From: Hyphococcus sp.
Lineage (GTDB): Bacteria; Pseudomonadota; Alphaproteobacteria; Caulobacterales; Parvularculaceae
Assembly: GCA_021776315.1 (NCBI GenBank)
Contig: JAJFGD010000031.1
Coordinates: 1-35,223, forward strand
Direction of reading: 5' to 3'
Length of the DNA stretch: 35,223 bases
The notes beneath the pieces were generated by a model. It was not told the DNA's origin. It did not search any database and worked only from the letters and a program-made list of their open reading frames with translations. Within the stretch, counting starts at the first letter, position 1. Each line of letters begins with the position of its first letter. The translations under genes were made by a program, and so were the position numbers. Below, piece by piece: positions 20,422 to 35,223 of the stretch.

Positions 20422-20471
20422 AAACTGGCAGGGGCCGAGGGACCTCGAACCCACGACCCTCGGTTTTGGAG
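20422..20471 (-). other. Degenerate tRNA-Trp 3' half; probable attachment-site remnant (left)
   Basis: On the minus strand this reads as the anticodon loop CTCCAAAA (anticodon CCA), the variable loop, the T arm with GGTTCGAG-like sequence and the acceptor end CCCCTGCCA. Compared with the copy at 25955-26006 it has one substitution and one inserted base. No clear 5' tRNA half follows at higher coordinates, although some bases there still resemble a D arm. It cannot make a functional tRNA. It is best read as the chromosomal 3' remnant left when an element integrated into tRNA-Trp. Confidence 0.8.
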
Positions 20472-20769: not shown

Positions 20770-21999
20770 TTATTCGGTCCTTGGGTCTAACTCACCGCCG
20801 GGGAGCCCCGCTGGCATCGCTGGCTGCCAATCGGTTTGATCTTGGTCTGGAACAGGTGCCTGTTCAATCCTTCGGAACATCATCATGAACATCAAAACGC
20901 CCAAGCATGCGGACGCGAATGCAAATAAGCCGGACGCGCCAAGAGCGCTTTGCATTACAATTCCAGCGATCAAAGGACCCAGCACTGATCCCAGTGCCCA
21001 AACCATCAACATCATGGACATCATCGAAGTCATGTCATCGTCGTCGACGCGATCTACGCCGTGCGCGACGCAGACCCCATAGAACGATAACGAACCTGCG
21101 CCCCAAACGAAAATGAGCAGATAGACGAACTCAAGTGGAAGATCGCTGCTTAACAGCCATAATACGCACGCGGAGATACCCGCTACGAGGGCCATCGCTG
21201 CAACGACAGTTCGGCGATCCAGGCGGTCTGAAATCAGTCCCGCTGGCCACTGACTCAACAAGCCACCAATATTGGCAACGCTATAAGCAATGGCGGCGAC
21301 GGTGAGGGTGTTTGAGCCATTTGCTAATTCCCCAGCAAAGATGGGGAGCAATGCAAGGGTGCCGCTATTGACCAAACCCGCTATGAATACGCCGACACAT
21401 GCCGCTGGAGAAATTTTTAAAAGGCGCCGAAACGGCAAACGCTCGGAGGAAACGCGCTTCGGCTCCTGCTTACGGGTGAGACAGACCGGCACCAAAGCCA
21501 CCGAGAGAAATAGCCCACACCAAAGGAAGTTTCGAGGATCGAGCGGCGACATGCTCAAAACGATTAGCGGCCCGATGAGAAGTGCGCCTTTCGCGGCAAC
21601 ATTGTAAATCCCCAATACGCTTCCGCGATGTTCTTTCGGGGTAACGCGACCGAGCCATGCTTCGGCGGCGGCAAACATCGCCGCGAATGTTGCGCCTTGG
21701 ACGAACCGGATCATTGCCCAGCCTATTTCAGACGTCCACAAGCCCTGCGAAATCGCTCCGACTGCTGTCAGCGCAGCGGCCGCCGCAAACACTCTGATGT
21801 TTCCGAATTCACCTATCAGACGTGGCGCATAATAGGCCCCAGCCATAAAGCCAGCCGCATGCAAGGCCGCGAGGAGACCGATGCCATCTGAAGCAAGACC
21901 AAGCTCCGCCAATCCGACCGGCGTCACCACGCTCAAAATCCCTCCAGCGAGCTGCAAAAACCAAACCGCTACAACCAGAGAAAGGACAGGCCGAACCAT
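20770..21999 (-). CDS. MFS transporter
   Basis: A 409-residue protein with twelve predicted membrane helices and Major Facilitator features: LIGEFGNIRV in the loop between helices 2 and 3, RFVQGATFAAMFAAAEAWLG in helix 4-5, and AGLISDRLDRRTVV after helix 8. The sequence resembles YcaD-type sugar or drug permeases of the inner membrane; the cargo is not predictable. The start is taken as the second Met (MVRPVLSL), two residues into the frame. The C-terminal tail is cytosolic and acidic. It follows the 62-residue gene after 15 bases and is probably co-transcribed with it. Confidence 0.9.
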   Translation of the reverse strand: MVRPVLSLVVAVWFLQLAGGILSVVTPVGLAELGLASDGIGLLAALHAAGFMAGAYYAPRLIGEFGNIRVFAAAAALTAVGAISQGLWTSEIGWAMIRFVQGATFAAMFAAAEAWLGRVTPKEHRGSVLGIYNVAAKGALLIGPLIVLSMSPLDPRNFLWCGLFLSVALVPVCLTRKQEPKRVSSERLPFRRLLKISPAACVGVFIAGLVNSGTLALLPIFAGELANGSNTLTVAAIAYSVANIGGLLSQWPAGLISDRLDRRTVVAAMALVAGISACVLWLLSSDLPLEFVYLLIFVWGAGSLSFYGVCVAHGVDRVDDDDMTSMMSMMLMVWALGSVLGPLIAGIVMQSALGASGLFAFASACLGVLMFMMMFRRIEQAPVPDQDQTDWQPAMPAGLPGGELDPRTE

Positions 22000-22014
22000 T
22001 AGCATAGCTTTGCC

Positions 22015-22203
22015 TCAACGAACGCGAAGTGCGTCCTTCTGTTTAGATAATTGCTGAACGCGCGTCGCTAAAAACTGATTGACCTGATCTGCGACATCGA
22101 TCCCCGTCGACGCCTCAATGCCTTCTAACCCCGGGATCGCTGATAGTCCCAGGTCGCTTTGGTCAACCCGTTCCTCCCAGCCAAGGGTGTAGGTTACTGA
22201 CAT
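22015..22203 (-). CDS. Small protein of unknown function (62 residues)
   Basis: A short but convincing gene: GGAGAG lies a few bases upstream of its ATG and the product has normal amino-acid use. It starts MSVTYTLGWEERVDQSDLG and ends in a helix-forming stretch (VADQVNQFLATRVQQLSKQK). There is no signal peptide or membrane segment. It stands just ahead of the MFS gene in what is probably an operon. I do not recognise the family. Confidence 0.6.
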   Translation of the reverse strand: MSVTYTLGWEERVDQSDLGLSAIPGLEGIEASTGIDVADQVNQFLATRVQQLSKQKDALRVR

Positions 22204-22544
22204 TTGAATCTCTCCAACAGGTGTTGGCGGGCTATAGCGTCAATTAAGCGAAGCGCAAGCGATTTTTGCTCTCTCACATCAAAGAAAAGATGAGGCCTTT
22301 TGTGGTAGCCGCATGTTGGGAATTCGAGGGTCCCAAACTCACCCCCAATAAGACACTCACAGTTTTCTTCGCTATGTCGACTTCTGGCAAAAACTGCCGT
22401 ACAGGTGCGCAGCCGCAAAATAAGACCAAACGTCTGTTCTTGGCCCAATCAAGACATCCGAATTTGGCAAACTGAACGGCAGATTGATCCTCGAAGGGGA
22501 CATTGGCAATTGGCGGTCACTGCCCACGGTGTGTTGCGACGAAA
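22204..22544. other. Intergenic stretch holding dispersed repeat copy A
   Basis: About 340 bases between the 62-residue gene and the end of the amidohydrolase gene. The only structure I can support is the repeat copy at 22374-22459. The upstream part must hold the promoter of the small gene and the MFS gene. Confidence 0.5.
22374..22459 (+). repeat. Dispersed ~90 bp repeat, copy A
   Basis: This copy runs from ATGTC to GACAT. It shares with the copies at 24000-24088 and 25101-25189, in order, the blocks GGCnAAAA, CTGCCGT, GCAGCCGCAAAA, a TGTnC, and TTGGCCC. It is the most diverged of the three. Confidence 0.75.
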
Positions 22545-23852
22545 TCATTCGGCGTTGGCTTGAGCGACAACTCCTTCTTTCATTACAAAAACAACATCCT
22601 CGAGAACGCGGATGTCCTCTAACGGATTTCCTCGCACTGCAATTAGGTCAGCGTATTTTCCGTTTGCGATTTCGCCAATCTTATCTTCCTGACCAAGTAA
22701 CTCAGCAGCGACAATAGTAGCGCTTCTGATCGCTTCGAGAGGCGACATTCCGGCTTCGATCATTAGGTGGAATTGCTCTGCGTTGCGCCCATGTGGGTAT
22801 ACGCCTGCGTCAGTTCCAAACGCAATCCGTACGCCGCCTTCATGGACTTTTCCAAAAAGCGTGACGATGGCGTCAAATTCCTCGTTGTTTGTGCGCCCCA
22901 GATCTTTGTCCTCGTAGTTTTGATTTTTTTCTATGAGGTCGTACCGCGCTGAAAGCAGGTCGAGAACAGCGACGATGTTATTCTTGCGCATAAGGCGAAT
23001 GCCTTCGTCGTCAATCATCGAAGCGTGTTCCACCGATGTAACGCCCGCGAGCACTGCATTCTTGATACCGTCGGCGCCGTGCGCGTGCGCTGCAACCGAA
23101 AGCCCCTGTTTCTTCGCTTCCGTCACGATTGCGCGCAATTCTTCAAGTGAGTAGGAGGCAGCGCCGGGGATAGTGCCATGTGTTCCATAACCGCCGGTTG
23201 CCGCGACTTTAATCAGATCCACATTATTCCGAATATGCGTCCTTGTCGCTTTCGTGACTTCGTCCACGCCGTCCGCAATGACATGCGCCTCCGTATTAAT
23301 CTGATGCTGCGGTGCCATCCAGTTTCCCCAGGAACCATGGCCGCCTGTCATTGTAATCATTTGGCCGCTTACAAACATGCGCGGCCCTTCCACCCACCCT
23401 TTGGCGATGGCATCGCGTAGCGCAACGTCACAATAGAATGGAGCCGACACGTCACGCACAGTTGTAAAGCCTGCTTGCAATGTTTTTTTCGCGTTCGCGA
23501 CGCCTACAATCCCAAATGTTGCAGCCGGATACGCCCAGTGGTCGAAGTCAGCGCCCATGTACGAATTGTCACAAAGGTGTGTGTGTGAATCGATCAAGCC
23601 CGGGAGTACGGTAAGTCCGGACAAATCTAAATATTCACTTTCAATCGCATCTTTTGAGCCTGCCGTTATAGACGAGATGCGACCGTTGCTCATTTCAATG
23701 ATGAGATTATTTCTTATTTTTCCGGCGCGGACATCCAGAAAACGCTCGGCAAAAATAGTTTTCTTTTCTTTGGGAGAACCCGACGACTCCTCCGCCACGA
23801 GCGCATTTGGAAGAAAAACCACCAAGCAAACAAGCAATACACGTAGGTTCAT
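22545..23852 (-). CDS. Exported metal-dependent amidohydrolase
   Basis: The 435-residue protein has a signal peptide (MNLRVLLVCLVVFLPNALVA) and then a complete amidohydrolase-superfamily site. The residues are His90 and His92 in DSHTHL, Lys215 in DLIKVAATGG (the carboxylated metal bridge), His256 in VAAHAHG, His276 in VEHAS and Asp348 in GTDAG. The closing block IGEIANGKYADLIAV is typical. Close relatives are exported imidazolonepropionase-like enzymes and dipeptidases that hydrolyse Xaa-Pro or Xaa-Arg peptides; the substrate is not certain. The start at 23852 has GGGGGAG upstream. The frame continues to 24086, but that extension is translated repeat (it begins MSPLGQKRTF, a peptide common in misannotated proteins). 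Confidence 0.92.
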   Translation of the reverse strand: MNLRVLLVCLVVFLPNALVAEESSGSPKEKKTIFAERFLDVRAGKIRNNLIIEMSNGRISSITAGSKDAIESEYLDLSGLTVLPGLIDSHTHLCDNSYMGADFDHWAYPAATFGIVGVANAKKTLQAGFTTVRDVSAPFYCDVALRDAIAKGWVEGPRMFVSGQMITMTGGHGSWGNWMAPQHQINTEAHVIADGVDEVTKATRTHIRNNVDLIKVAATGGYGTHGTIPGAASYSLEELRAIVTEAKKQGLSVAAHAHGADGIKNAVLAGVTSVEHASMIDDEGIRLMRKNNIVAVLDLLSARYDLIEKNQNYEDKDLGRTNNEEFDAIVTLFGKVHEGGVRIAFGTDAGVYPHGRNAEQFHLMIEAGMSPLEAIRSATIVAAELLGQEDKIGEIANGKYADLIAVRGNPLEDIRVLEDVVFVMKEGVVAQANAE

Positions 23853-23954
23853 TTCTCCCCCATCCTTTCTGGTATGATTGCACATTCGGATTTCCAGATC
23901 GCGCAGGATACCCAGAAACATGACTACCGTCCAACTCCGCAATATCAAAAAACC

Positions 23955-23981
23955 ATGTCTGGTTTTGCGCATTCCAGACAT
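23955..23981. repeat. Inverted repeat related to the dispersed repeat
   Basis: ATGTCTGG, an 11-base loop, then CCAGACAT, a perfect eight-base stem. Its ends match the ATGTC...GACAT ends of the larger repeat copies, so it may be an internally deleted member. It lies about 100 bases upstream of the amidohydrolase start. Confidence 0.65.
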
Positions 23982-23999
23982 CCGGGTCGGGAACCTGGA

Positions 24000-24088
24000 A
24001 TGTCCATTTTCGGCGAAAAACCGCCATTGACGTTCGCAACCGCAAAAATCTGGGCTGAATGTCCGCTTTTGGCCCAAAGGCGACATTC
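24000..24088 (+). repeat. Dispersed ~90 bp repeat, copy B
   Basis: Best-preserved copy, from ATGTCC to CGACATTC, with an internal TGTCCGCTTTTGGCCCAAAG. Read on the minus strand it produces the spurious MSPLGQKRTF peptide in front of the amidohydrolase. It ends seven bases short of the lipoprotein stop at 24095. Confidence 0.85.
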
Positions 24089-24094
24089 GCTATA

Positions 24095-25018
24095 TCAAGT
24101 TTGCGGGCACAACTCTTCCACATAGTAGTCGCGCTTCATGTCCATCTTGGATGACATAGCCTCCAGACGACTTTTGAGACGGTCGATTTCAGCGATAATT
24201 TCGCGCCGGTCTTGTTCATCGTCAGCGCACCGTAAGGCTTCTTCCTCATTTAGTATTTCACGGGTGTAGTCGCTAGTGCATTCCGCCACAGGGTCCACCT
24301 TAAAAATCCCACACTGGTCTACAATTTCACCGTTCAATGTTGGCAGCATTTGGTCCAAGATTTCTAGTAACTCAATTTCCATTACTTCTCGTAACTTCTC
24401 TGCCGACACAAAATATTGCAATTCCCGTCTGTAAAGTGGAGTACCTTCTTGTGGTGGTAAACTGACCGGATAACGATTCATTCGAGGCAAATAATCTTCG
24501 CCCGACATTGGATCGACGAGGGTTCTTTCACCGACTTCCACCATCGTTCGAACTAAACAAAAGTTTGTTGGTGCGTATTTTGCTAACTCTGTGGGAACAT
24601 CGGCTACCTCCCACCTCACAGAAAAGAGCATATTTCCTGACGTTTTGAGCGTCGTTCCTCGCTCTTGGAACTCACTCTTTGCCAAATCTTCAAATGGCTG
24701 TTTCAGTACCTGGATTTCGTGGGGGGCTTCCGCATCAGTATAAAGATATTCACCACATTTACTGAGTGTGCCATTCATTCCAAAATCCCTTAGCATAATC
24801 GAAACAAAGAACCTAAATGTCGTTGGCGCAACGTAATTTTTCATCGCCGCTTTGTATCGACCACCACTTGAAATTCTATCGGGGTCGGCTCCAATATAGC
24901 GCTTACTGAATCCTTTGAATTCTCGGTAGGGATTGATATCGTTTTGGGAAACATGCTCATCTATTGATGAACAAGATGTGCAGACAAGAATTAGAAAAAT
25001 CAGGATGTTTCTGGTCAT
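24095..25018 (-). CDS. Lipoprotein of unknown function
   Basis: A 307-residue product with an N-terminal hydrophobic segment ending in a Cys-containing site (MTRNILIFLILVCTSCSS), probably a lipoprotein signal although the residue three before the cysteine is itself Cys. The mature part is mixed alpha/beta with several cysteines (SKCGEYLY, DQCGIFKV, VAECTSDY, LRCADDEQD) and ends in a coiled-coil-like helix (EIIAEIDRLKSRLEAMSSKM). I recognise no family. Codon use and base composition are AT-richer than in the left part of the window, in keeping with an acquired island. Confidence 0.65.
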   Translation of the reverse strand: MTRNILIFLILVCTSCSSIDEHVSQNDINPYREFKGFSKRYIGADPDRISSGGRYKAAMKNYVAPTTFRFFVSIMLRDFGMNGTLSKCGEYLYTDAEAPHEIQVLKQPFEDLAKSEFQERGTTLKTSGNMLFSVRWEVADVPTELAKYAPTNFCLVRTMVEVGERTLVDPMSGEDYLPRMNRYPVSLPPQEGTPLYRRELQYFVSAEKLREVMEIELLEILDQMLPTLNGEIVDQCGIFKVDPVAECTSDYTREILNEEEALRCADDEQDRREIIAEIDRLKSRLEAMSSKMDMKRDYYVEELCPQT

Positions 25019-25100
25019 AATTTCTCAGGAGGATTTTCGCGTTTGCATTGCATTGTGATGCGATTGTAGTTGACCTAACAGTGTATAGGTATTTCACGCA

Positions 25101-25189
25101 ATGTCAGCTTTTGGCGAAAAGCTGCCGTTCACGTTCGCAACTGCAAAACCCTTGGTTGAGTGACCGTTATTGGCCCTTAGTTGCCATTC
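25101..25189 (+). repeat. Dispersed ~90 bp repeat, copy C
   Basis: From ATGTCAGCTTTTGGCGAAAA to TTGCCATTC, aligning over its length with copy B, including the blocks CGTTCGCAAC and TTGGCCC. It lies upstream of the lipoprotein gene, in the 286-base space before the gene at 25305; I see nothing else in that space. Confidence 0.8.
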
Positions 25190-25304
25190 AAACGTTACGC
25201 TCTCAACGTCCAGTTTGACGACAAGCTGATATCCTACCATCGATCTTTGCCAAAAGTTTGATATGTTCTCACGATCACGAAACTGAAACGCATCAGGTTT
25301 AGGA

Positions 25305-25760
25305 ATGAATGATACTCCCGCAAATGCTTTGGACCAAGCCGCTATTTTCCAATCACTACACACGCTCGTTGGCAAATGGCAGGGCACAAACGAAGACGGT
25401 CAATGGGTTGGCGTTTGTTATGAGATGACGGCGAATGGGACGGCATTGATTGAAAGCTGGACATTCCACAATCAGATGAACGCACTTACGGTTTATCACA
25501 TGGATAGCCAGACATTGATGGCCATGCATTATTGTCCCATCGGCAATCAACCAAGGCTTGATCTAAAACATCAGTCAGCTGATGGGACACTCGCATTTGA
25601 ATGTGTCTCTGCAACACACTTAAAGAGTTTCAAAGATCCACATGAACATGCTTTTGACTTGAAAATGAATAAAGATGACTCGCTTTATCGAAGCGAAACA
25701 TATGTTGAAACCGACGGACAGCTCAAGCGCAATGGCACACTGTTTCGCCGGGTAACTTAA
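25305..25760 (+). CDS. Small soluble protein, probably a beta-barrel (lipocalin-like)
   Basis: A 151-residue protein without signal peptide. After a short helix (DQAAIFQSLHTL) comes VGKWQGTNEDGQWVGVCYEM, the G-x-W start typical of small lipocalin-like or DUF1579-type barrels. Alternating strands follow (TALIESWTFHNQM, LTVYHMDSQTLMAMHY, LDLKHQSADGTLAFECV) and a closing strand RNGTLFRRV. Such barrels bind small hydrophobic molecules or haem; no ligand is assigned. It is the last gene before the right-hand tRNA-Trp remnant. Confidence 0.65.
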   Translation: MNDTPANALDQAAIFQSLHTLVGKWQGTNEDGQWVGVCYEMTANGTALIESWTFHNQMNALTVYHMDSQTLMAMHYCPIGNQPRLDLKHQSADGTLAFECVSATHLKSFKDPHEHAFDLKMNKDDSLYRSETYVETDGQLKRNGTLFRRVT

Positions 25761-25954
25761 AGCCTGCATGGTCTAAGTTTGGGCCGCTTCTTGTGCCAAT
25801 TCATTGAGTGAAAGATACTGTCTGTATTTGGCCAGTATTGAGCACTAGGATTGAATACAACCAATCTAAAGATTGGATAGTCGGCTTTTAACGCCCCGTT
25901 TAACGCCCCGTTTTTGGCGGGTACGATTTTTTGAATCCAAATTGTCCATTAAAA
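25761..25954. other. Right end of the first island, non-coding
   Basis: No gene. It contains a short perfect hairpin CCAATC-TAAA-GATTGG at 25861-25876 and the tandem 12-mer listed separately. Confidence 0.5.
25889..25912. promoter_or_regulatory. Candidate integrase arm-type sites, right (tandem 12-mer)
   Basis: TAACGCCCCGTT occurs twice end to end, at 25889-25900 and 25901-25912, 43 bases from the tRNA-Trp remnant and on the island side of it. A third copy lies at 20575-20586 near the other remnant. Tandem short repeats at this distance from the crossover core are typical arm sites of tyrosine integrases. Confidence 0.5.
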
Positions 25955-26006
25955 AAACTGGCAGGGGCGGAGGGACTCGAACCCACGACCCTCGGTTTTG
26001 GAGTCC
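25955..26006 (-). other. tRNA-Trp 3' half; attachment site between the two elements
   Basis: Reading the minus strand: GGACTCCAAAACCGAGGG (anticodon loop with CCA), GTGGGTTCGAGTC (T arm), CCGCCCCTGCCA (acceptor and encoded CCA). This is a good tRNA-Trp 3' half. The sequence beyond 26006 is unrelated to a tRNA 5' half, so it is an attachment remnant and not a working gene. The integrase gene starts about 180 bases away, on the side expected if this is the end of the second element. Confidence 0.9.
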
Positions 26007-26015
26007 GAAAAAAGC

Positions 26016-26060
26016 GTTTCAATCCGTTTCTATCTGTTTCCATCTGTTTCCATCCGTTTC
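26016..26060. repeat. Phased decamer array beside the attachment site
   Basis: GTTTC occurs five times at exactly ten-base intervals (26016, 26026, 26036, 26046, 26056), with the spacer of the last four units reading close to NATCY. One helical turn per unit puts all copies on one DNA face. Position between the attachment core and the integrase suggests arm-type binding sites for the integrase or an excision factor. Confidence 0.75.
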
Positions 26061-26185
26061 ATCTTTTTCTCTTTTAAAACAGACATTTAGTAGCTCTGCG
26101 TTCGTTCAAACTCTATATTTTGGGCACGGTGCGAAAACGCACACCAGTGCATATGGATGCATTTGGAATTAAGGAAATTAATCAG

Positions 26186-27586
26186 ATGACAGAGTATAAA
26201 GAACAATCAAGGAACTCTATTGACACAATTAAAATGACTAAGGCAGCAGTCGACAGGTTGCTAAAGAGAGTCCAAAACTCGGCCTTAAAACCGCGTAAAG
26301 ATGGCACCATCGCCCGCTTCGAATCTAATCGCGATATCTATATTCGGGTTCTAAAAGACAGTTCCGACCTTACATTCTATAGTAGGAAGGCAGGCCCTCT
26401 TGGTCGTTGGACCGTTTGGCGGGAAAATCCCGATTGGATTTCCGAGCTCTGCGCAAAAGCAGAACGCAAAAATACTGGCAAGGTGGATACGCATATTGAC
26501 ACCAAAACAGCTGAGACTATGTGGGAACTATTTGAGCAGTATTTTTCATCTGACAAATTTCGATCCCTAAAAACCCATAGGGGAATGGCTGGTCAATTAA
26601 AGTTGCACTACTTGAACGTGTTTGGGAATACGCCTTGGAATGAAATTTCCCGTCGCAATCTATTGGAATGGCACCAAAATGTTGCATCAAAGAAGAAATC
26701 CAGTTCTGCGACTGCAAACAGAGTTCTGTCTATGCACTATGGTGGGATAAAATGGATCAAAGACAATCTATTCGACGATGGCCAATTCGCCTACCCACGC
26801 CTGCAAAAACAACCCGAAACACACACCAAACGACCTCCTCTCCCAGCTCTTCAGCTTCGTGCACTTTGGCACGCTAGCAAACAACTACCCAGCGAAAAAG
26901 CTGGGGCCATTATCCGGCTATTGATTCTTACAGGACAACGTGAAGGTGCAATTGCAGGTTTGGAATGGGATGATTTACGGAAGGAAAAAAATGGTTGTCA
27001 CGGGTGGCTGACCGTTCCTGCCATGCGGTCAAAGGGTGGATTTGAATATGAGATTCCGATAGCCCCAACCGCTTTAGAAATCTTAGAAGGTCTGTATGAC
27101 GAAGGCACTCATAAAGTTTTTGGAACGATTGATGGCAAAAACGTAAAACTCGATAACCACCATAAACTTTTGTGTGAAAACTTCATGCGAGGATATTTGC
27201 AAAAATATGGGCGAACAGACTCAGAAAAAACACTACAACCATGGTGTTTTCATAATATACGAAAGAACTTCAGAAACTTTTTAGACCAAGCTGGCGTTAG
27301 CCCCTACACCGCCGAGCCTATGATTGGACACAAGACAAAGTTTACTACAGGCGCTGAGGATGCGTATTTAACACGTGATCGATCAGATGATATGTTGGAT
27401 GCAATGTTCAAACTAGAAAAGTACATGATGAACTTGTGTGAGGGCGATATTTCATACGCTCGGGTGCCAGAGGAACGAGATCGCATTCCATTCAGAGAAT
27501 CGTTATCTGAAAAGTACGCAATAAACATAAATAATAACGCAAACGACAAAATTCTTGTTTTCAACCGAAAAACGGTTTTCCTCTAG
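26186..27586 (+). CDS. Tyrosine recombinase (site-specific integrase)
   Basis: A 466-residue integrase from the ATG at 26186, preceded by AAGGAA; the frame extends to a TTG at 26120, adding 22 residues. An N-terminal arm-binding region and a core-binding SAM-like domain (about residues 110-200) precede the catalytic domain. The catalytic residues are Arg252 in TGQREGAIAGLEWDDL, Lys283 in MRSKGG, His356 and Arg359 in FHNIRKNF, His382 in IGHK, and the nucleophile Tyr394 in EDAYLTRD. The set is complete. It sits directly beside a tRNA-Trp attachment remnant, the usual location of the integrase of a tRNA-targeting element. It should act by joining the element to the 3' end of tRNA-Trp. Its gene converges with the SIR2-like gene, 12 bases apart. 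Confidence 0.95.
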   Translation: MTEYKEQSRNSIDTIKMTKAAVDRLLKRVQNSALKPRKDGTIARFESNRDIYIRVLKDSSDLTFYSRKAGPLGRWTVWRENPDWISELCAKAERKNTGKVDTHIDTKTAETMWELFEQYFSSDKFRSLKTHRGMAGQLKLHYLNVFGNTPWNEISRRNLLEWHQNVASKKKSSSATANRVLSMHYGGIKWIKDNLFDDGQFAYPRLQKQPETHTKRPPLPALQLRALWHASKQLPSEKAGAIIRLLILTGQREGAIAGLEWDDLRKEKNGCHGWLTVPAMRSKGGFEYEIPIAPTALEILEGLYDEGTHKVFGTIDGKNVKLDNHHKLLCENFMRGYLQKYGRTDSEKTLQPWCFHNIRKNFRNFLDQAGVSPYTAEPMIGHKTKFTTGAEDAYLTRDRSDDMLDAMFKLEKYMMNLCEGDISYARVPEERDRIPFRESLSEKYAININNNANDKILVFNRKTVFL

Positions 27587-27598
27587 AACTGAGAAAAA

Positions 27599-28654
27599 CT
27601 AAATGTTATCAGTGAGAAGCGGCGCGTGATCCTTTAGAAGAGTATCGCAACCGTCGCTTGCACTGCCCATCCATACTAAATTTTTATTACTAGTATTAGT
27701 ATAAAAGGATTCTTGAATACGGTTCTGAAACGCAACTCGTTGTGGTGCTGGCACACCGTGTAGAGTGGCAAATACTTGTTGCTCGATCCCGCCAAGTTGA
27801 TTTGGCATTCCTCTTACATTTAGCAAAGCCATATTTTGTTTATGAAAACCGAATCCCAGAAATAGTATTTTTCGTGAATTGACCAGTCGCTCCTTTAAAG
27901 CCGGAGGCATCAAATCGTCGCTTGCAACTGTTGTTTCAGTGTAAACCTGTAAGTTTTGAGCCGCGCCCGAAATTAAATCATGACGAGGTGCCCAACAATT
28001 TCCCATTGGAATTGCTTCTTCAAACGAGTACTCACCAAGGTTGCCATACGGATGAAAACAACTCAGCGATCTCATGAGATCACATACCGTCCCATCGCTT
28101 AAGGCGTACGCGTCCTGCAATCCTTCCTTTAAGCAAGCATAGATCGCCCGATCATAGTTGAAATTTATGATTGTAATTCTCGAGAAAACCTCGGCACACC
28201 GACTTCGTGGAATCCCGGTAATCAGCATCTTGATCAAATGGTTAACCCAAGTTCCGTCTAAAATATCAATTTTCGCTTGTCGCTTTTCTTCGATTGTCCC
28301 GTCTAGAATCTTAGATATTTTTGACTCCTGCTCGGCTTTGGCAATCGAATAAGCAATCATCCACTTTCCCATCTTCACAATCTCTTCGTCTTCGTGAAAA
28401 CTACCTAAACAATCATCAATTGACCCAAAACGTCTCAAGGCATTTGCAAGAGCTATTTCCTTTTCGGGATTTCGTCTACCGAGCAAACTCCGAAAGGTCT
28501 CTCGAATTCTGTCGATATGAATAGGCTGCGGATATCGACTGGAGACTCTTTCAAGCTCTCTAGAGATGTTTTCTTTGAGTTTCCAACCTAACGGAAACCC
28601 CAAGTCAAAGCTGGATCCTGCACCCAATACAATTGTTGTTTCTGTCTCAAACAT
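27599..28654 (-). CDS. SIR2-like domain protein, probable NAD-targeting defence gene
   Basis: A 351-residue protein with features of the SIR2-like domain used by bacterial anti-phage systems: GAGSS (residues 11-15, where NAD-binding members have GAGAS or GAGxS), followed by GFPLGWKLKENI. NFNYDRAI (Asn164, Asn166, Asp168) corresponds to the TTNYD block. HPYGNLG (His201) is in the place of the catalytic histidine. ILFLGFGFHKQNM lies near the C-terminus. No extra domain is visible, so the sensor, if any, may be in the C-terminal third. Its location next to an integrase fits the cargo slot of mobile elements. Activity as an NADase triggered by phage is inferred from the family. No partner such as HerA is adjacent. 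Confidence 0.7.
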   Translation of the reverse strand: MFETETTIVLGAGSSFDLGFPLGWKLKENISRELERVSSRYPQPIHIDRIRETFRSLLGRRNPEKEIALANALRRFGSIDDCLGSFHEDEEIVKMGKWMIAYSIAKAEQESKISKILDGTIEEKRQAKIDILDGTWVNHLIKMLITGIPRSRCAEVFSRITIINFNYDRAIYACLKEGLQDAYALSDGTVCDLMRSLSCFHPYGNLGEYSFEEAIPMGNCWAPRHDLISGAAQNLQVYTETTVASDDLMPPALKERLVNSRKILFLGFGFHKQNMALLNVRGMPNQLGGIEQQVFATLHGVPAPQRVAFQNRIQESFYTNTSNKNLVWMGSASDGCDTLLKDHAPLLTDNI

Positions 28655-29047
28655 AATCCAACCAGCAAACGCTTCACATCCAATATTAATTTAGCCGCAT
28701 AATTGACTTAAAATAGCATCTGCGATTCTCATTTGTTTGCAATATGAGTTTTTTATGAACTTGCGAGAGTATTAAATACGAATTCACGCGCTCCAAAGGA
28801 GGTTTAATGAATTCCCATTGACGAGGACCTCGAAAAAAGTCAAGGCAAAAAATAAGGTCATAAGATACTGTAAAGACGAGGCCAATTACGTCGTTTGAAG
28901 GTAGTTCAGATGAAAAGGGGTAAAACCCGTATACTCATGGTTAAAGCTGTTGCCTTAAGACGAAAGCTAACGCTCGGTGTAATTTATGACAATGCTACTA
29001 GAAACTACACGGCGACAGATTCCAATAATTCCTATAGATTTTTAGCT
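28655..29047. other. Intergenic stretch with a strong orphan ribosome-binding site
   Basis: About 390 bases upstream of the SIR2-like gene. It contains AAAGGAGG at 28795-28802 followed four bases later by an ATG that opens a frame of only four codons (MNSH). A further plus-strand frame, 28895-29194, gives a Lys/Arg-rich product but overlaps the ankyrin gene. These may be remnants of a broken gene. Confidence 0.4.
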
Positions 29048-30766
29048 CTAACTACAGAATTGCCTAGCTTCGTAGAGATTCATCCCGCAGAATTGACCCA
29101 ATTCGAAACATGTCGTCAAATCATCAAAGCCGCTTGCCTTTGCATCTTTCAGCGCTTCTTCCAAAGTTCGATCATACTCAAATCCATCACATAGCTCCCA
29201 CTTACTTAAACCCGATCTACCTTCATAGATCCGTGCAAGGTTTTCCTTTTTTATGGGAACACCGTTTTTGACCAATTCTTTTGCCATATCTGAGCGTATG
29301 TCACGGGAGCGTACATCAGCAGCGGATTCACCATTAGAATCTTTATGCAGCAAATTTGCACCGCGTGAAACTAGAAGGTCCAACATTTCTTTACCATTTG
29401 CAGAAAACAAAGGTGTTTGGCCCTTTCCATTAACCCAGTCAACGCTAATGCCACGGTCTAACATCGCTTCCACAAGTGCCATCCGATTCTGCGCAACTGC
29501 GTGATCCATAATTGTCAAACCCTCATTGCTAAGAATCATCAAATTCCCTCCATACTCCTCCAATAGATAGAAATAGGCCTCCGCTTTCTCGACGGACCCC
29601 ACTTTGTGCTTACCAAGGAAAAATCCGGTCGACGGAGTGATTCCTTGATCGTCTTTCTGATTCGGGTCAGCGCCATTCTCCAGAAATAATCTGTAAATAT
29701 TTTTCGCAGAAAACTTTTCGTCGCCGCTCGTATCATCATTGCCATAACCAAAAGAAACATCACGAATTGGGCTTCGGCCAAATGAATCCTGTTTATTTGG
29801 ATCAAATCCCAATTTCAGTAGTTGTTGCAAAATTTCATACTCATTGATTTTGGCAGCGTAGTGTAGTGCCGATCTTCCAAATTCATCCTGTTTGTCGTTA
29901 AGTCGATACCCATGACTAACGAGCGACTGAAATATTTCATATCTTTTTGAAAAACTAGGATCAGGACCGAGCCCTATATGGCCGCAACTATCGCAGTTCT
30001 TGAGCAAAACATTTAACAACGACGTGGTCCCATCGTAGTCAAAAGAGGCATTCACATCTGCACCGTTTTCAATCAGCAACATTACGATCCGCCACTTTTC
30101 ATAGCTCTGGTCTTCCCCCTCGCCTGCAAGAGCGCAGCAGCCTCCATATGACGTCATGGCGAAAACCACAATTGGCACACTGATGGTTGGTGACGTGGAG
30201 ACCGCTGACAATGCAACATCAGCGCCGTTACTAAGCAGCATTCTGGTCATTGCCAATCGATTTGTTCCCGCAATTATCCCAAAACTCAGTGGCGTTCCTT
30301 CTCTGGCTAAGTAACCACCTATTTCAAACGGATCATCCACCGTCCTCAGCCTAGCTTTTCCAAACTGCATCCTGCTACTAAATTTGCAGTTTAGCCTACT
30401 AATGCTATTTGGGTCGGCACCCATTTTTAAAAAATGCTCCGCTATCTCAACCCGACCCAATGCAGCTGAAAGGTGGAGCAGAGAGGTCTGTTTCGTAGCA
30501 CTAATGCGTGCATCAAGCCCCTCTCCTACAAGGGTAGTCCCACAATTTTTGAGCAAAATTTTGGAATTAGCCCTTGAACGACTATTTACATGCTGTCGAA
30601 CGTAATCAATATCGTTAATTAATACCGCTCGGCCAATGTCTGCATAATCCTCATCAGATACGCTGATCCCATTCGGAACATTAAGCGTCTGGGCCACAGT
30701 TGTCTGATAGCCCGAAGAAAGAAAAACCATTGTTGCAACAATGATAGTTTTCAAGAATATATTCAT
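29048..30766 (-). CDS. Secreted ankyrin-repeat protein
   Basis: A 572-residue protein with an N-terminal signal peptide (MNIFLKTIIVATMVFLSSGY, probably cut after TTVAQ). About eight ankyrin-type units follow. Clear ones read SLLHLSAALGRVEIAEHFLK, ALHYAAKINEYEILQQLLKL, DHAVAQNRMALVEAMLDRG and LLVSRGANLLHKDSNGESA. Each is followed by the usual G-A/F-DPN turn. Two are split by insertions. The C-terminal 70 residues hold four cysteines (LCDGFE, TTCFE, FCGMN, QFCS) and may form a small disulfide-bonded domain. It should act in the periplasm or outside the cell, binding another protein. It is probably element cargo; function unknown. Confidence 0.85.
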   Translation of the reverse strand: MNIFLKTIIVATMVFLSSGYQTTVAQTLNVPNGISVSDEDYADIGRAVLINDIDYVRQHVNSRSRANSKILLKNCGTTLVGEGLDARISATKQTSLLHLSAALGRVEIAEHFLKMGADPNSISRLNCKFSSRMQFGKARLRTVDDPFEIGGYLAREGTPLSFGIIAGTNRLAMTRMLLSNGADVALSAVSTSPTISVPIVVFAMTSYGGCCALAGEGEDQSYEKWRIVMLLIENGADVNASFDYDGTTSLLNVLLKNCDSCGHIGLGPDPSFSKRYEIFQSLVSHGYRLNDKQDEFGRSALHYAAKINEYEILQQLLKLGFDPNKQDSFGRSPIRDVSFGYGNDDTSGDEKFSAKNIYRLFLENGADPNQKDDQGITPSTGFFLGKHKVGSVEKAEAYFYLLEEYGGNLMILSNEGLTIMDHAVAQNRMALVEAMLDRGISVDWVNGKGQTPLFSANGKEMLDLLVSRGANLLHKDSNGESAADVRSRDIRSDMAKELVKNGVPIKKENLARIYEGRSGLSKWELCDGFEYDRTLEEALKDAKASGFDDLTTCFELGQFCGMNLYEARQFCS

Positions 30767-30989
30767 GTCAAACGACCCTTGAGATATAAACAGCTTATTT
30801 GATTGCCCAATAGATTTACAGCCAATTTAACCTCCTTCAAGATATATATCAGACCGCTTCGTCAAAGTAAAAGCTAGGGTGAAAATTTTGGAGTTAAGCA
30901 ACCGTTTTGAGTTATTTACGCTCAATCAGTTCAATTTTTTGCAGGCGCGAATAAAGATCCGCCCGCTAATTCTCGCAATCAATGCAATC

Positions 30990-32519
30990 TTATAGTGGAC
31001 CGCATTTACTACGGTGGAAAGTTGAGAACAAAAGATCCGTTACACCGCTTCTTATTGCATTTTGCTTATGCAAAACCGCCAAACCAAGCGCCAACGCCAT
31101 AACCATATCATCATGTTCAGGACTAACAAAAATAACGGTACCATCACTTCGATAATCTGGACGTAATGCTCCAATTTCTTGTTTTAGGTTTTCAGTGCCA
31201 GCAACGTCAGTTGAAATATAGAAATTTCCTTTGGCTAACCACTTGATTAGATTTTGTATCAGCCAATTTCGGGAAAACTTATTCCAGCGCTTTGAAGCTC
31301 CGCTCGTGATTATTGCCCTGTCAAACTTCAATGAATGATTTTCTTCTACGTTGTCACAGACTGGTGCCCCTACCCCGCTTGCATCAATGACCAGCTTTGT
31401 CTTCCACGTTTTGAAGTGTCGTTTATCCATGTAGTCAGCAATTGCTTGTGCTTGTTTGTTGTAATTCTGGTTTTTCGGCAAGATCACCAAATCGCAAACG
31501 ATATGTGTTTTCTTTCCATTCATTTCCTTAGTCATAATTGTGCAAATAACGGAACGGTCTTGTGATTTAGCAAGGTCGATACCGACAATGTATGAGTATG
31601 AAAATGGAGGCTTCGGTATTTCTGCACGTTTAGGTAATGGTGGGTTTTCACGACGGAAAAAAGAAAATTCATCACCTAAATCAAAAGATACATCCATTCC
31701 TATGATGTTATGTTCTGAATGAAACACAGACGATTCTTGGTCATACAAGGTGCCCATGGGAATAAATGTGTCGTCTAATACATCAGGATGGATAAGTAGG
31801 TCATTGTTTTCATCGAATGAACAACAATACTCCCTCTGATATGCCGCCTCCCCGATTGTTCGTCGCTCTTGTTCAAGGAAGTTATCAGGGATTCTGGAAA
31901 TCTGGCTGGCCGGAACCTTGATTTTCACAAAGTTATCATTGGCGATCCACTGTCGATAGAACCAACCGCGCGGACCTGACGGAGTGCTAAGGCATACAAG
32001 TTTCGAATTCGGGTTTGTCGCCAGCATTGGGCTTAGAGTTGAAAACAAGTCGTCATTGCAGAAAGCAGCTTCATCTAATATCGCCATATCGATTGCAGAG
32101 TATCCGCGTAACAAATCGGGCCTTGCGCCTGACAATCCAATGATACGGGACTTGTTTTTGAATTTCAGCTCAGAAACTTGGATTCTGAGTTCCGATCCGT
32201 AACCAGCCTGAATCATCAATTCAGCTATGCGTTTGATATTCTCCTTAGCAAGGCGTTCAGATGGAGCAACAACCAGTATCAGGCTTCCCGGACGTGTAGA
32301 TGCCCTTTGTGCAGCTGCTGCACATGCGGTGAGCGTCTTACCAGATTGTCTAGAACAGCAAATAAGATATTGGTTTTCAGTGAGGTTGAGTAGTTGCGTT
32401 TGCCATCCGTCAGGTACCAAATTATTGCGTTCGAAAATATCTGAAGCATTCAGAGCTCGCTTCAATCTCTCTATATTCTCAGGTGGTAATGGCTTTGATT
32501 TAACAGAATTCGATGACAT
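30990..32519 (-). CDS. Phage-type terminase large subunit (packaging ATPase/nuclease)
   Basis: The 509-residue protein has both domains of a TerL. The ATPase has Walker A CSRQSGKT (55-62), Walker B MAILDE (145-150) and the coupling motif LSTPSG (177-182). The RNase H-fold nuclease has Asp315 in IVGIDLAKSQDRS, Asp379 in LVIDASGVG and the HDDMVMALALG block near residue 478. All catalytic positions look intact. TerL cuts concatemeric DNA and drives it into a procapsid. It ends a tight three-gene block with two unknown genes. No portal gene follows downstream, where the next gene is the ankyrin protein. Confidence 0.9.
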   Translation of the reverse strand: MSSNSVKSKPLPPENIERLKRALNASDIFERNNLVPDGWQTQLLNLTENQYLICCSRQSGKTLTACAAAAQRASTRPGSLILVVAPSERLAKENIKRIAELMIQAGYGSELRIQVSELKFKNKSRIIGLSGARPDLLRGYSAIDMAILDEAAFCNDDLFSTLSPMLATNPNSKLVCLSTPSGPRGWFYRQWIANDNFVKIKVPASQISRIPDNFLEQERRTIGEAAYQREYCCSFDENNDLLIHPDVLDDTFIPMGTLYDQESSVFHSEHNIIGMDVSFDLGDEFSFFRRENPPLPKRAEIPKPPFSYSYIVGIDLAKSQDRSVICTIMTKEMNGKKTHIVCDLVILPKNQNYNKQAQAIADYMDKRHFKTWKTKLVIDASGVGAPVCDNVEENHSLKFDRAIITSGASKRWNKFSRNWLIQNLIKWLAKGNFYISTDVAGTENLKQEIGALRPDYRSDGTVIFVSPEHDDMVMALALGLAVLHKQNAIRSGVTDLLFSTFHRSKCGPL

Positions 32520-32526
32520 GAAAGAA

Positions 32527-32853
32527 TTACGCTCCCGACGGTTGTAGCGCGTCGTGTAGAGCCATCTTTGCTTCTGGATAGCCTTCTAGAGCATCCAAAA
32601 TTACGGCTGTTATGGAAGCTGCAGGATGATCGCCGTGGCTAGGCGTTGGCTTTTGGCGTTCCTGCAACTCCAAAAGAAGCCTGACAGTACTTTGTATTTT
32701 CTCTTCTATTCTCAAGTGCAACTCGTATTCTTCAGTTCTTTTGAACCGCGCTTGATGAAGCATAGTTTCTAAGCGCTCCAACTGATCTCTCGTTTTCTCT
32801 ATTGCTGTCGTCAGTGCCTGCCCCTGTACATCAGCGCTCGCTGTGTCCAACAT
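32527..32853 (-). CDS. Small coiled-coil protein upstream of terL
   Basis: A 108-residue, mostly helical protein. Residues about 15-75 (TTAIEKTRDQLERLETMLHQ and LRIEEKIQSTVRLLLELQER) form a likely coiled coil. Its C-terminal part (SITAVILDALEGYPEAKMAL) is a second helical region. It lies seven bases ahead of terL and three bases after the gene before it, so all three are surely co-transcribed. The place immediately upstream of terL is that of small terminase subunits, which are helical oligomers, but I see no helix-turn-helix; that role is a guess. Confidence 0.6.
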   Translation of the reverse strand: MLDTASADVQGQALTTAIEKTRDQLERLETMLHQARFKRTEEYELHLRIEEKIQSTVRLLLELQERQKPTPSHGDHPAASITAVILDALEGYPEAKMALHDALQPSGA

Positions 32854-32856
32854 TCC

Positions 32857-33657
32857 TTATTCTCCAGACGTTGGCGCATCTTGATCAAATGACATCTCTG
32901 TTTGAATCTGGTGTGGCAGCGCATCTTGCCCGAAAGCCTCGTAAGAGTTCTGGGCTTCAGACTGAGCCTGAGCCTCTAGCGTAGCGGGTTGGATGAAATC
33001 TTGATGGATTGTCGTTGATAGCGATGTTGCAGCGAGCTCAAGAGCACCATAGGCAGCGTTCATATCGTCACACAGAGCCTTGTCAGTAGACCCTAAAATG
33101 TTTTCAGCAAACAATGCATCCGCCTGATCAAAATGGTGTGACATGGCAACTGTGGGGTTTCTAGGACCCGTTGAGAGGGCATCAATTACCGCCTCATCTT
33201 TCGCCAACAAACAATCTGCCAAAAAGTTGTTTCTTGCCTGCCGTTCCATTCTCTGGAGCTCTGTTCGGATAGTTGATCGCCTCGTTTCTAATGCGGCATT
33301 TCTTGGCAACTTAGCTTCCTGAACCTTTATAGAATATCCGGTACCCGCCTCCATCAGTGATGCCTGCACATCAATAATTTGCGCCATCTGTTCCTTGAGG
33401 CGCTTGTTGGCGAACTGGGATATATTTATGAGCCTGCTAGCTTTCGGACGTGTCTCATCAGCATTTTGAGCCGCTGCAAAAGCCTCTAGCTGGTGTAATG
33501 TAGCGAATGAATTGTCCAATACATTTGCACATGACAACAAATTCTTGTTCCCAGTACGCATATCCGAGTCGTAGCTAAAATTATTCTGAATCTTGAAAAG
33601 TGAATCGTATTTTGTCTTGCTGGCATTTTTTGCCGGATCAATAATTTCAATTGTCAT
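32857..33657 (-). CDS. Helical protein of unknown function, first gene of the terL block
   Basis: A 266-residue protein without signal peptide. Most of it is predicted helical (KNLLSCANVLDNSFATLHQL, RRSTIRTELQRMERQARNNF, ALFAENILGSTDKALCDDMN). The C-terminal 40 residues are Gln- and Ala-rich. It opens the operon whose last gene is terL. I recognise no family. Candidates would be a packaging or head-assembly accessory protein. Upstream (33658-33854) there is a 7-base inverted repeat ATGTCGG/CCGACAT at 33711-33747 and a palindrome TTGACT-ACC-AGTCAA at 33786-33800 that could be a regulatory site. Confidence 0.6.
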   Translation of the reverse strand: MTIEIIDPAKNASKTKYDSLFKIQNNFSYDSDMRTGNKNLLSCANVLDNSFATLHQLEAFAAAQNADETRPKASRLINISQFANKRLKEQMAQIIDVQASLMEAGTGYSIKVQEAKLPRNAALETRRSTIRTELQRMERQARNNFLADCLLAKDEAVIDALSTGPRNPTVAMSHHFDQADALFAENILGSTDKALCDDMNAAYGALELAATSLSTTIHQDFIQPATLEAQAQSEAQNSYEAFGQDALPHQIQTEMSFDQDAPTSGE

Positions 33658-33785
33658 ATCTCTAAATCTCCATTTGGTACTCTTTCTCTTGAGTGGTTGA
33701 ATTTTGAATCATGTCGGGGACTCTGTGGGCTTCCTTCTCACCGACATAACATTTGGGGTGTAGGGGCTAGCAACCTCAAAACCCT

Positions 33786-33800
33786 TTGACTACCAGTCAA
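33786..33800. promoter_or_regulatory. Palindrome TTGACT-ACC-AGTCAA
   Basis: A perfect six-base inverted repeat with a three-base spacer, about 130 bases upstream of the terL operon start and 55 bases beyond the stop of the preceding minus-strand gene. Either arm also resembles a -35 element. It could be an operator or a weak transcript end. Confidence 0.3.
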
Positions 33801-33854
33801 GTTAGCTGACGGATTCATTGGGGTTGCACGCTGTCATATGCAATCCGACATAGT

Positions 33855-34118
33855 TCAAATGCATACTCGTAAGTATCGATTGCCACCGACTGTTGCCAAG
33901 GGATGGTTGCACTGAAACTTTCGCCTAACGACAAGATACCAGTCCTTAGGTAATTCCCGTCCAGTCAAAGGCGAGCTGATGACTACTACGTTACCGGCTG
34001 CAAAGCGTTGATAGACGGTTTCAGCCAGTACCCGAAGGGGATGACTTGGCTTTGACTGTCCGTAGAGCTTTTCAAATATAATGTATTTAGTGACTCCTTT
34101 ATCATTACCGTCCTTCAA
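33855..34118 (-). CDS. Hypothetical protein (87 residues)
   Basis: A short frame that starts at a TTG without a clear Shine-Dalgarno. The product reads KYIIFEKLYGQSKPSHPLRV, then VVVISSPLTGRELPKDWYLV and ends in RYLRVCI, a plausible small alpha/beta protein. No family is recognised. It lies 59 bases downstream of the HUH-type gene, on the same strand, and may belong to its transcript. It could be a chance frame. Confidence 0.4.
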   Translation of the reverse strand: MKDGNDKGVTKYIIFEKLYGQSKPSHPLRVLAETVYQRFAAGNVVVISSPLTGRELPKDWYLVVRRKFQCNHPLATVGGNRYLRVCI

Positions 34119-34177
34119 TAGAAGGCGGTTTCAATGCGTCTTTTAGTGTACCGCCGAGAAACACGGCGCGCACAACG

Positions 34178-34636
34178 CTAGTTAATGAAAACTGGTCGGG
34201 AGAAAAACTCTAGTTTCTCTGACTCCGATTCTTTCGTTATGTAATTTCGCCATTTCTGAAGAGTGGTTGTTCCAATATGAACCGTTCCAGCCGGCCATAG
34301 TTTCTGGAAGATATTTTCAGCTCTATTTATAAATGCTGGCAGTGCATCTGCGTTACAGAATTCCTCCGGCACCCTCACCTGTCCGTGTAGGTGGGGACTG
34401 TGACCAACCTTTTCCGGAAAGAATACACCAATGAATTGCTCTTCTTTTCGGATTTTATCAATTGCACGGCCGTAACATTTTTTCTCAAGCCTACGCACAA
34501 ATACAACAGCTTTATGTTGCATTACTGCTTCCGTGACTTGGGCATTAAATTGAAGCGTAATATTTACATTAAGCTTGCGATCATCCATCCACTCTATGTA
34601 ATTGGCCCTCAAACGTCGAGGATCTATTTCGATCAT
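34178..34636 (-). CDS. HUH-type replication initiator/endonuclease, small
   Basis: A 152-residue protein from the ATG at 34636; the frame extends to a TTG at 34657. It shows the three motifs of rolling-circle Rep proteins in order: NVNITLQFN (residues 23-31, motif 1), HSPHLHGQVRV with the HUH pair His82 and His84, and WRNYITKES with the candidate nucleophile Tyr132 and Lys135. There is one catalytic tyrosine and no helicase domain. Such enzymes nick one strand at an origin and stay joined to the 5' end, starting replication or transfer. It has its own strong promoter upstream. The protein is short for a Rep, so a relaxase-like or transposase-like role is also possible. Confidence 0.7.
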   Translation of the reverse strand: MIEIDPRRLRANYIEWMDDRKLNVNITLQFNAQVTEAVMQHKAVVFVRRLEKKCYGRAIDKIRKEEQFIGVFFPEKVGHSPHLHGQVRVPEEFCNADALPAFINRAENIFQKLWPAGTVHIGTTTLQKWRNYITKESESEKLEFFSRPVFIN

Positions 34637-34749
34637 CTTTATCCACGTCAAATGCAATAAATAATAAAAGCTCAGGGATTTCAGGAAATAAAATGAATCC
34701 TGTTTCCTTGGTGTCGGACACTGAGCTCGCCCGATTTATATAGGGTATA

Positions 34750-34783
34750 TAGTATAATACTACGTCTACGGACGATTTGTCAA
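34750..34783 (-). promoter_or_regulatory. Strong sigma-70-type promoter with overlapping palindrome
   Basis: On the minus strand, TTGACA (34778-34783) is separated by 18 bases from TATTAT (34754-34759). The -10 lies inside a perfect palindrome TAGTAT-A-ATACTA (34750-34762). It points toward the HUH gene, whose start is about 115 bases downstream. A palindrome across the -10 is a natural repressor site, so this looks like a regulated replication promoter of the element. Confidence 0.65.
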
Positions 34784-34802
34784 GGGTTTTAGCATTTTTC
34801 TA

Positions 34803-35117
34803 TCACAAATACTTTAAATGGTGGTCTTTTACGGCATACATATCGGGGTACTGAGGTTTTTCGCCTGAATAACAGCAGTGTTTATACATCCGAACATCAC
34901 CAAAGTAGTACTTTTCATACTTGAACACTTGGCCAGCGGTTCGATCCGGCGGAAAGTATATAACGTCCTCCAGACCGCGCTTTTCAGCGTCACGAGCCCT
35001 AGCCCTTCTGATGCCGAATGTTTTCCTACTACGCCAGCCAATGATTAACCCAGCGTCTTTTGCTCCTATCAATCGGATATATTCGTCAATTTTTTCCTGC
35101 CGAATTTCTTGATCCAC
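34803..35117 (-). CDS. Hypothetical protein (104 residues)
   Basis: A GTG-started gene with a good Shine-Dalgarno (AAAGGAG eight to nine bases upstream). The first half is helical and basic (IDEYIRLIGAKDAGLIIGWR followed by SRKTFGIRRARARDAEKRG), resembling a small DNA-binding region though no standard helix-turn-helix is sure. The second half is Tyr- and Cys-rich (KYEKYYFGDVRMYKHCCYSG). It lies just upstream of the promoter of the HUH gene. A regulator of that promoter would fit the position but is not shown by the sequence. Confidence 0.55.
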   Translation of the reverse strand: MDQEIRQEKIDEYIRLIGAKDAGLIIGWRSRKTFGIRRARARDAEKRGLEDVIYFPPDRTAGQVFKYEKYYFGDVRMYKHCCYSGEKPQYPDMYAVKDHHLKYL

Positions 35118-35223
35118 GAAGAATACTCCTTTTACGAATTACCTGTGAAAACGTGATCATCAATTGGAGAGAATTCCGTATAGGCAAGTCAATCAAAAAA
35201 CCTTCCAAAAAAGGGTTTCATAT

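Follow-up and report, generated by a model that had tools for sequence, protein, structure and literature searches.

Contig C200 of the Hyphococcus sp. assembly G000 (3.3 Mb in 275 contigs, 95% complete), analysed here over its whole length of 35,223 nt (the window), carries an AT-rich element that is integrated in a tRNA gene and extends from about position 26,008 to the contig end at 35,223. We interpret this element, with a probability of roughly 0.6, as an integrative phage satellite that borrows procapsids and encodes its own terminase as its only recognisable morphogenesis function. This interpretation fits best because two relatives with mapped boundaries, in genomes G639 and G199, encode a candidate small terminase subunit (TerS-like) and a large terminase subunit (TerL) without any portal or capsid match, and because TerL is under purifying selection. 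The features of the element are listed below; C113 is a further contig of the same assembly that holds part of a related element.

25960-26008 (-): 3′ half of a tRNA-Trp gene, the attachment (att) site at the integrase end, from sequence and the neighbouring secE
26120-27586 (+): tyrosine integrase (PF00589 E 7.6e-12; PHROG integrase E 8.5e-30), 37% identical to the integrase of C113; coordinates from the first start codon of the frame, the true start may be later
27599-28654 (-): SIR2-like protein, candidate defence cargo (PF13289 E 0.024, below cut-off; PADLOC SIR2 E 4.4e-4)
29048-30766 (-): ankyrin-repeat protein, cargo, adjoining TerL and after it (Pfam Ank E 3.8e-25)
30990-32519 (-): TerL, intact, ATPase and nuclease fused (PHROG TerL E 2.2e-43)
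32527-32853 (-): TerS-like small protein, from motif and position
32857-33657 (-): P6, 266 aa, predicted all-helical, with a homologue at the corresponding point of C113
33855-34118 (-): 87-aa open reading frame (ORF) of doubtful coding status (no Pfam or PHROG match)
33962-34058 (no strand): candidate packaging or origin site, matched at 70% identity by C113 DNA at the corresponding point, also upstream of P6 (two sequences only)
34178-34657 (-): HUH protein, small and single-domain, 159 aa, putative replication initiator (REP_ORF2-G2P E 0.0023, below cut-off)
34803-35117 (-): 104-aa ORF (no match in Pfam, PHROGs or NCBIfam)

The integrase stands on the plus strand at the att site, followed by the SIR2-like, ankyrin, TerL, TerS-like, P6, 87-aa, HUH and 104-aa genes, all on the minus strand. 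With a GC content of 43.2%, against 50.5% for bases 1-20,400, the tRNA 3′ half and the tyrosine integrase, the element answers to the AT-rich integrative element at a tRNA that an earlier inspection of the letters alone (the sequence-only reading) had described. Its claims of an intact TerL and of missing portal, protease and capsid genes in the visible part also hold. Solved phage terminases, including Gp17, match the C200 TerL or its alignment, and all three nuclease Asp positions are kept. The nine predicted element proteins were scanned with Pfam and PHROGs and eight of them with NCBIfam; none matched a portal, protease or capsid family and, besides TerL, none matched a head or tail family. 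P4-like satellites are marked by Psu, Sid, Delta and the alpha primase, and no such marker appeared among the PHROG matches of the C200 proteins, no P4 profile having been run.

Terminases of this branch appear to be rare at the search sensitivity used. A TerL protein search matched two of 149 related genomes at E 1e-20 (G000 itself and G018), alignment A5 matched four of 398 genomes of the order at 1e-25 (G000, G018, G061 and G199), and alignment A7 matched four of 385 genomes of the class at 1e-30 (G000, G589, G639 and G627); these samples overlap. G627 (L142, L143) was excluded before counting, its contig being plasmid-like by eye (ParA, resolvase); there, one strand carries an ORF for a TerL ATPase and the other an ORF that looks nuclease-like by eye (L142:14929-17635). 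Assembly G000 contains parts of two more TerL elements, one on C142, which begins inside a TerL 80% identical to that of C200, and one on C113, whose TerL is 40-42% identical and comprises two ORFs. A pattern scan of genome contigs with a TerL-C alignment yielded one relative among 134 candidate stretches (Methanothrix, 21% identical). The counted set comprises eight loci in six genomes (C200, C113 and C142 in G000, and one each in G018, G199, G061, G589 and G639), and in all eight TerL has no recognised portal or capsid gene beside it. The gene set that the sequence-only reading proposed to look for in other genomes recurs in its terminase without recognised head genes, and not in its HUH and P6 genes.

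The organisation of the terminase differs among these loci. TerL consists of two genes, for the ATPase (TerL-N) and the nuclease (TerL-C), in C113, G018, G199, G061, G589 and G639 (six of eight loci), and is fused in C200 and C142. In C113, G018, G589 and G639 a possible start of the second gene lies 3-45 bases within the first, while its start is uncertain in G199 and G061. Separate PHROG families of 239 and 233 positions, the second listed as of unknown function, match the two halves in G199 and G639. In G589 two TerL nuclease genes are adjacent, one with the first catalytic Asp replaced (L139:2186-3414). Directly upstream of TerL, a TerS-like gene is found in all seven loci in which that side is visible (C142 excluded), the gene of G199 by a by-eye reading. 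The C200 protein has no family match above cut-off in Pfam, PHROGs or NCBIfam; it has a C-terminal YPEA(R/K)-type motif, shared with the genes that directly precede TerL in most relatives and in the phages Riverbug and MMP17, and with the recognised TerS of G589. We read the upstream gene as TerS because its G589 counterpart matches the PHROG terminase small subunit (E 4.9e-23) and has the same motif at its C terminus. The best phage matches to TerL are the Thermus/Meiothermus phages Riverbug, MMP17 and MMP7 (27-38% to the C200 TerL, about 43% to the G589 TerL-N), whose TerL is fused, unlike the split TerL of most relatives. Riverbug and MMP17 resemble the group in the motif of the gene just upstream of TerL, but differ from it in the portal or portal-like and head genes that follow TerL.

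Comparison of the C200 and C142 TerL genes gave dN 0.130 and dS 1.09 (Nei-Gojobori, 378 codons, 81% identical), and thus a dN/dS of about 0.12, which is rough, one of three blocks being saturated at synonymous sites. Constraint on the protein is nevertheless clear: TerL is under purifying selection between the two G000 elements, which speaks against simple decay. It is quite unlikely, in our judgement, that the element is a remnant of decayed prophages in which the terminase was left by chance, as the sequence-only reading had also considered: a second, decayed att fragment does point to a hotspot for islands, with old remnants next to the element, but the low dN/dS, the kept catalytic residues, the finding of TerL in eight loci with no recognised head module, and integrase frames that are open in C200, C113, C142, G199, G589 and G639 all argue otherwise. 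A tree built on 26 TerL-N rows puts the seven capsid-less ones at three separate points (3 changes, against a shuffled mean of 6.4; deep branches are weak), so the capsid-less state may have arisen more than once.

Two relatives have both boundaries mapped. The G639 element is flanked by an exact 51-bp repeat, partly within tRNA-Gly, and measures 15,178 bp from repeat to repeat. Among its 20 picked ORFs of at least 70 aa, 17 were scanned with PHROGs and three CBASS (cyclic-oligonucleotide-based anti-phage signalling system) genes with PADLOC; matches comprise an integrase (E 1.2e-48), a serine recombinase, a metalloprotease/regulator-type protein, a helix-turn-helix (HTH) regulator, TerL-N and TerL-C, and no portal, head protease or capsid match was found among the 17 + 3. 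The sole unassigned ORF of at least 280 aa encodes a 983-aa protein that looks helicase-like by eye. In G199, pieces of tRNA-Thr flank about 14.8 kb, with a further 3′ piece just outside. This element encodes an integrase, an excisionase-type regulator, TerL-N, TerL-C, an endonuclease VII-like protein, a glycosyltransferase, a methylase and a SmaI-type endonuclease; of 21 picked ORFs of at least 70 aa, some surely spurious, ten proteins were scanned with PHROGs, and none of these matched a portal or capsid. Neither the G639 983-aa protein nor a 430-aa protein of G199 has a PHROG, Pfam or PDB match. The proteins encoded upstream of the TerS-like gene in G199 (L124:8353-9012) and G639 (L140:16379-16924) are homologous (31% over 120 aa, E 2e-6); they belong to no known family and are candidate packaging factors.

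These bounded elements bear on whether C200 simply holds part of an ordinary prophage, or of a capsid-forming phage-inducible chromosomal island (cf-PICI), with its head genes past the contig edge. The C200 element is cut at 35,223 with its far end off the contig, a portal-capsid-tail module could lie beyond, and cf-PICIs carry TerS and TerL together with head genes, according to the portion of PMC10690885 consulted. Nevertheless, all DNA from TerL downstream to the att site is visible and contains no head gene, whereas the nearest phages keep their portal and head genes there; G639 and G199 lack portal and capsid matches; and no match to PF04860, PF05065, PF06074 or PF10124, the only portal and capsid families searched genome-wide, was found in the G000 assembly. 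We consider this explanation unlikely, and the capsid-borrowing satellite remains, of the readings first offered, the one that fits best. The rest of the element, up to the intact tRNA-Trp expected by the sequence-only reading, was not found in the assembly: positions 33,660-35,223 gave only a short C113 match and one chance-level match against the whole assembly, and the end of C200 has no 20-mers in common with the ends of three related contigs.

Searches of viral contigs recovered 21 loci with alignment A6 and at least 458 relatives with alignment A5, of which the best 80 were kept. ORFs were read in L038, L039, L040, L044, L046, L047, L058, L019, L041, L042, L043 and L048, and in L150, L154 and L155 of six distant loci. 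L039 and L041 (fused TerL and portal-like genes by eye) and L044, L046, L047 and L058 (own structural genes by eye) were set aside before counting. Terminal repeats bound the 11-13 kb viral contigs L044, L046, L047, L058 and L112, which carry a TerL of a related branch; the first four are possible miniature tailed viruses. The IMG/VR contig L038 (7138-12591) encodes integrase pieces (by eye), a primase, a split TerL and two proteins that match tail collar or fibre families.

Several observations weigh against a satellite with a self-encoded terminase. Contig ends truncate five of the eight loci (C200, C113, C142, G018 and G061), where head genes could be looked for only in part, and the second end of G589 is unmapped. 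Some of the ORFs in the bounded elements fall in no known family, and a capsid gene of unknown type among them is possible; a 123-aa protein of G639 weakly matches a PHROG internal head protein (E 0.0059). As to TerS, the C200 gene is without the N-terminal HTH-like part that several counterparts have, the C113 gene keeps the motif poorly, the only PHROG match of the G639 protein is a weak one to a spanin (E 0.0059), and the depositors of Riverbug give the name TerS to the gene after TerL, not to the one before. HUH and P6 are not common to the group. Packaged copies, which had been suggested as a check, were not seen: single-protein scans of viral contigs with the C200 TerL and HUH returned no relatives and no element in virion DNA, and scans with the G639 and G589 TerL returned only distant ones (five and one loci, 25-37%). 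The IMG/VR contigs L038, L040, L042, L043 and L019, set aside before counting, have a similar split TerL and may be phages. Lastly, no helper was identified in genome searches limited to PF04860, PF05065, PF06074 and PF10124, and prophage helpers of other families are possible. PF04860 and PF05065 were each found once, off the element contigs, in three of the five genomes searched (G018, G199 and G639) and not in G000 or G589; PF10124 was found in none of six genomes, and PF06074 in one of six, as a weak second match to the same G639 portal. In G639 the portal and capsid lie in a cluster with its own TerL that we read, from its families, as gene transfer agent (GTA)-like; this cluster suggests Alphaproteobacteria as the probable class.

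Outside the terminase, the genes of these elements vary. Part of the earlier claim of a single-domain HUH endonuclease stands, since the key residues of HLHG (HxHG) and YITKE (YxxKE) are invariant in an alignment with two relatives, found at E 1.7e-5 and 3.6e-5. Its family match and fold are weaker: in searches with the predicted model (pLDDT, the predicted local distance difference test, 68), the Rep proteins of adeno-associated virus and tomato yellow leaf curl virus and parvovirus NS1 were among the top matches (Z 6.4-7.5 over 97-133 residues), on a level with ferredoxin-like folds of a generic kind. No HUH matches were found in phage or plasmid records. HUH replication as a mark of the element type was not borne out, as within the group this protein is seen in the C200 copy only; C113 encodes a Prim-Pol in its place, G589 also has a primase-type gene, and no replication gene was recognised in G639 or G199. 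The HUH relatives, in G041 and G017 (L131:8606-9741, L132:7975-9128 and L133:920-2630), lie near a similar-looking gene of 157-196 aa, with two HUH copies 19 kb apart in G041 and no terminase in the stretches read. P6 matches the C113 protein at BLASTP E 7e-7 over 90 aa and is claimed for these two loci only; a G018 protein was dropped after its BLASTP match proved not significant, and fold searches with the predicted P6 model gave only generic helical matches, none informative. Beyond TerL, C142 has a SIR2-like gene and then an integrase adjoining tRNA-Arg, and G018 has a 263-aa gene and two small ORFs before a tRNA-Thr that is a candidate att site only. The G589 locus adjoins tRNA-Arg, without an att duplicate found, and holds a primase/helicase, TerS, TerL-N, the two nuclease genes and, by eye, an integrase and an AlpA-like gene. 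HUH proteins have roles in plasmids and in conjugation as well, and neither a helper nor a particle was seen, which would suit a genomic island or mobilizable element that moves by other means and has the terminase as cargo. We regard this as very unlikely, because the C200 HUH protein is a single 159-aa domain and the terminase is the part common to the group while other genes vary.

The cargo points in part to phage defence. PADLOC identified CBASS with E2 in G639 (phospholipase, cyclase and E2), SmaI-type restriction-modification in G199 and the SIR2-like protein in C200. The last, which the sequence-only reading did not mention, has no PDB match and has a homologue in C142 (21% identical, BLASTP E 8e-10), also located between TerL and integrase. 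The ankyrin protein, correctly described as following terL, has an apparent signal peptide by eye, as a secreted protein would, and matches the PADLOC candidate PDC-M72A (E 4.6e-23), a match that may rest on the repeats alone. Defence genes alongside the terminase in G639, G199 and possibly C200, together with separate ATPase and nuclease genes that could permit separate use, raise the idea that TerS and TerL serve interference, spoiling helper packaging or cutting phage DNA, while transfer is passive. This is rather improbable given that the TerS-like gene is retained along with both the ATPase and the nuclease motifs of TerL, as one would expect of a working motor.

From the anatomy of the proposed satellite we infer a cycle of excision, replication and packaging. 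The integrase would move the element into and out of the tRNA gene, and the replication protein (the HUH nickase in C200, primase-type proteins in C113 and G589) would amplify the excised circle, perhaps to a concatemer. The TerS-like protein and TerL would next pick out element DNA, attach to the portal of procapsids that a helper, co-infecting or resident, supplies, and pack the DNA into them. Cargo differs from element to element and in several relatives includes genes of recognisable or likely defence function (SIR2-like, CBASS, restriction-modification); it would guard the host against competing phages.

The chromosomal side of the element is also informative about its site. Three features of this flank are as follows.

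16490-17023 (-): nusG, by-eye reading; context only
17048-17338 (-): secE, PF00584 match; context only
20422-20471 (-): 3′ half of a tRNA, an older decayed copy (96% DNA match and sequence)

The tRNA-Trp identity of the fragment at 25960-26008 is a by-eye reading of a CCA-containing sequence, and fits a gene order, tRNA-Trp beside secE and nusG, that we take to apply here. The decayed fragment at 20,422 and the cleaner one at 25,960-26,008 are read as repeated integration at one site; the C200 element would be the newest at tRNA-Trp beside secE, and the decayed copy would mark an earlier integration. ARAGORN found no intact tRNA in the window, and in the whole assembly neither an intact tRNA nor a copy of the 3′ half other than these two was found, a match on C6 being set aside as lying at tRNA-Met. 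Between the fragments (20471-25959), a transporter, an amidohydrolase and other genes were recognised by eye, and no integrase was seen.

Among known satellites, phage-inducible chromosomal islands (PICIs) have an integrase at the att site and a replication gene and lack capsid genes, cf-PICIs have an integrase, and the phage-inducible chromosomal minimalist island (PICMI) has its site beside fis. The C200 element shows the PICI features of an integrase at the att site, a replication gene and a TerS-like gene (without the HTH). PICIs are without their own TerL and use that of the helper, whereas the C200 element has an intact TerL under purifying selection; no capsid-remodelling gene was recognised in it, no such profile having been run on purpose. 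According to the sections of PMC10690885 consulted, some Staphylococcus aureus pathogenicity islands (SaPIs) encode TerS, a strategy that the C200 element resembles in having a TerS-like gene and no recognised capsid gene, and proteobacterial PICIs encode an adaptor. The same sections describe cf-PICIs as encoding both terminase subunits, as the C200 element does (its TerS by motif and position only), together with their own portal, protease, capsid and connectors, none of which was recognised in the visible part of C200, in G639 or in G199. PICMI is described, in the portion of PMC10803314 consulted, as a small satellite without capsid-remodelling genes in which its authors found no terS homologue, unlike the C200 element with its TerS-like gene and TerL. 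Further families are named in a review (PMC11389934, in part), and virion-encapsidated integrative mobile elements (VEIMEs) and tycheposons, which occur in marine bacteria and have been put forward as phage satellites (PMC11389934, PMC10803314, in the parts consulted), are likened here by that description only; some may carry TerL. Charybdis elements (preprint PMC12324425, in part) were set aside as concerning something else. In the titles and abstracts surveyed, satellites with TerL only, TerL without head genes and split terminases are unreported; the original VEIME and tycheposon papers lie outside this comparison, and absence from print is not claimed.

In the sources consulted, then, described satellites either redirect the helper's motor, by TerS, an adaptor or a cos site, or bring a whole head. 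A terminase-bearing satellite would stand between the PICIs, with TerS only, and the cf-PICIs, with the whole head. A wider proposal is held only tentatively and is more doubtful than not, namely that a broad satellite group of this bacterial class uses a self-encoded terminase, mostly of two proteins, as its sole piracy device to re-motor foreign procapsids, and that the helper in G639 could be its GTA-like particle. If the satellite interpretation is true, a motor-only element would have to fit its TerL to the portal of another virus, so that compatibility between motor and portal could be tested directly, and the group would offer a natural two-part TerL. It would serve, too, as a carrier of defence systems, with CBASS and restriction-modification in its relatives and the SIR2-like gene in C200.

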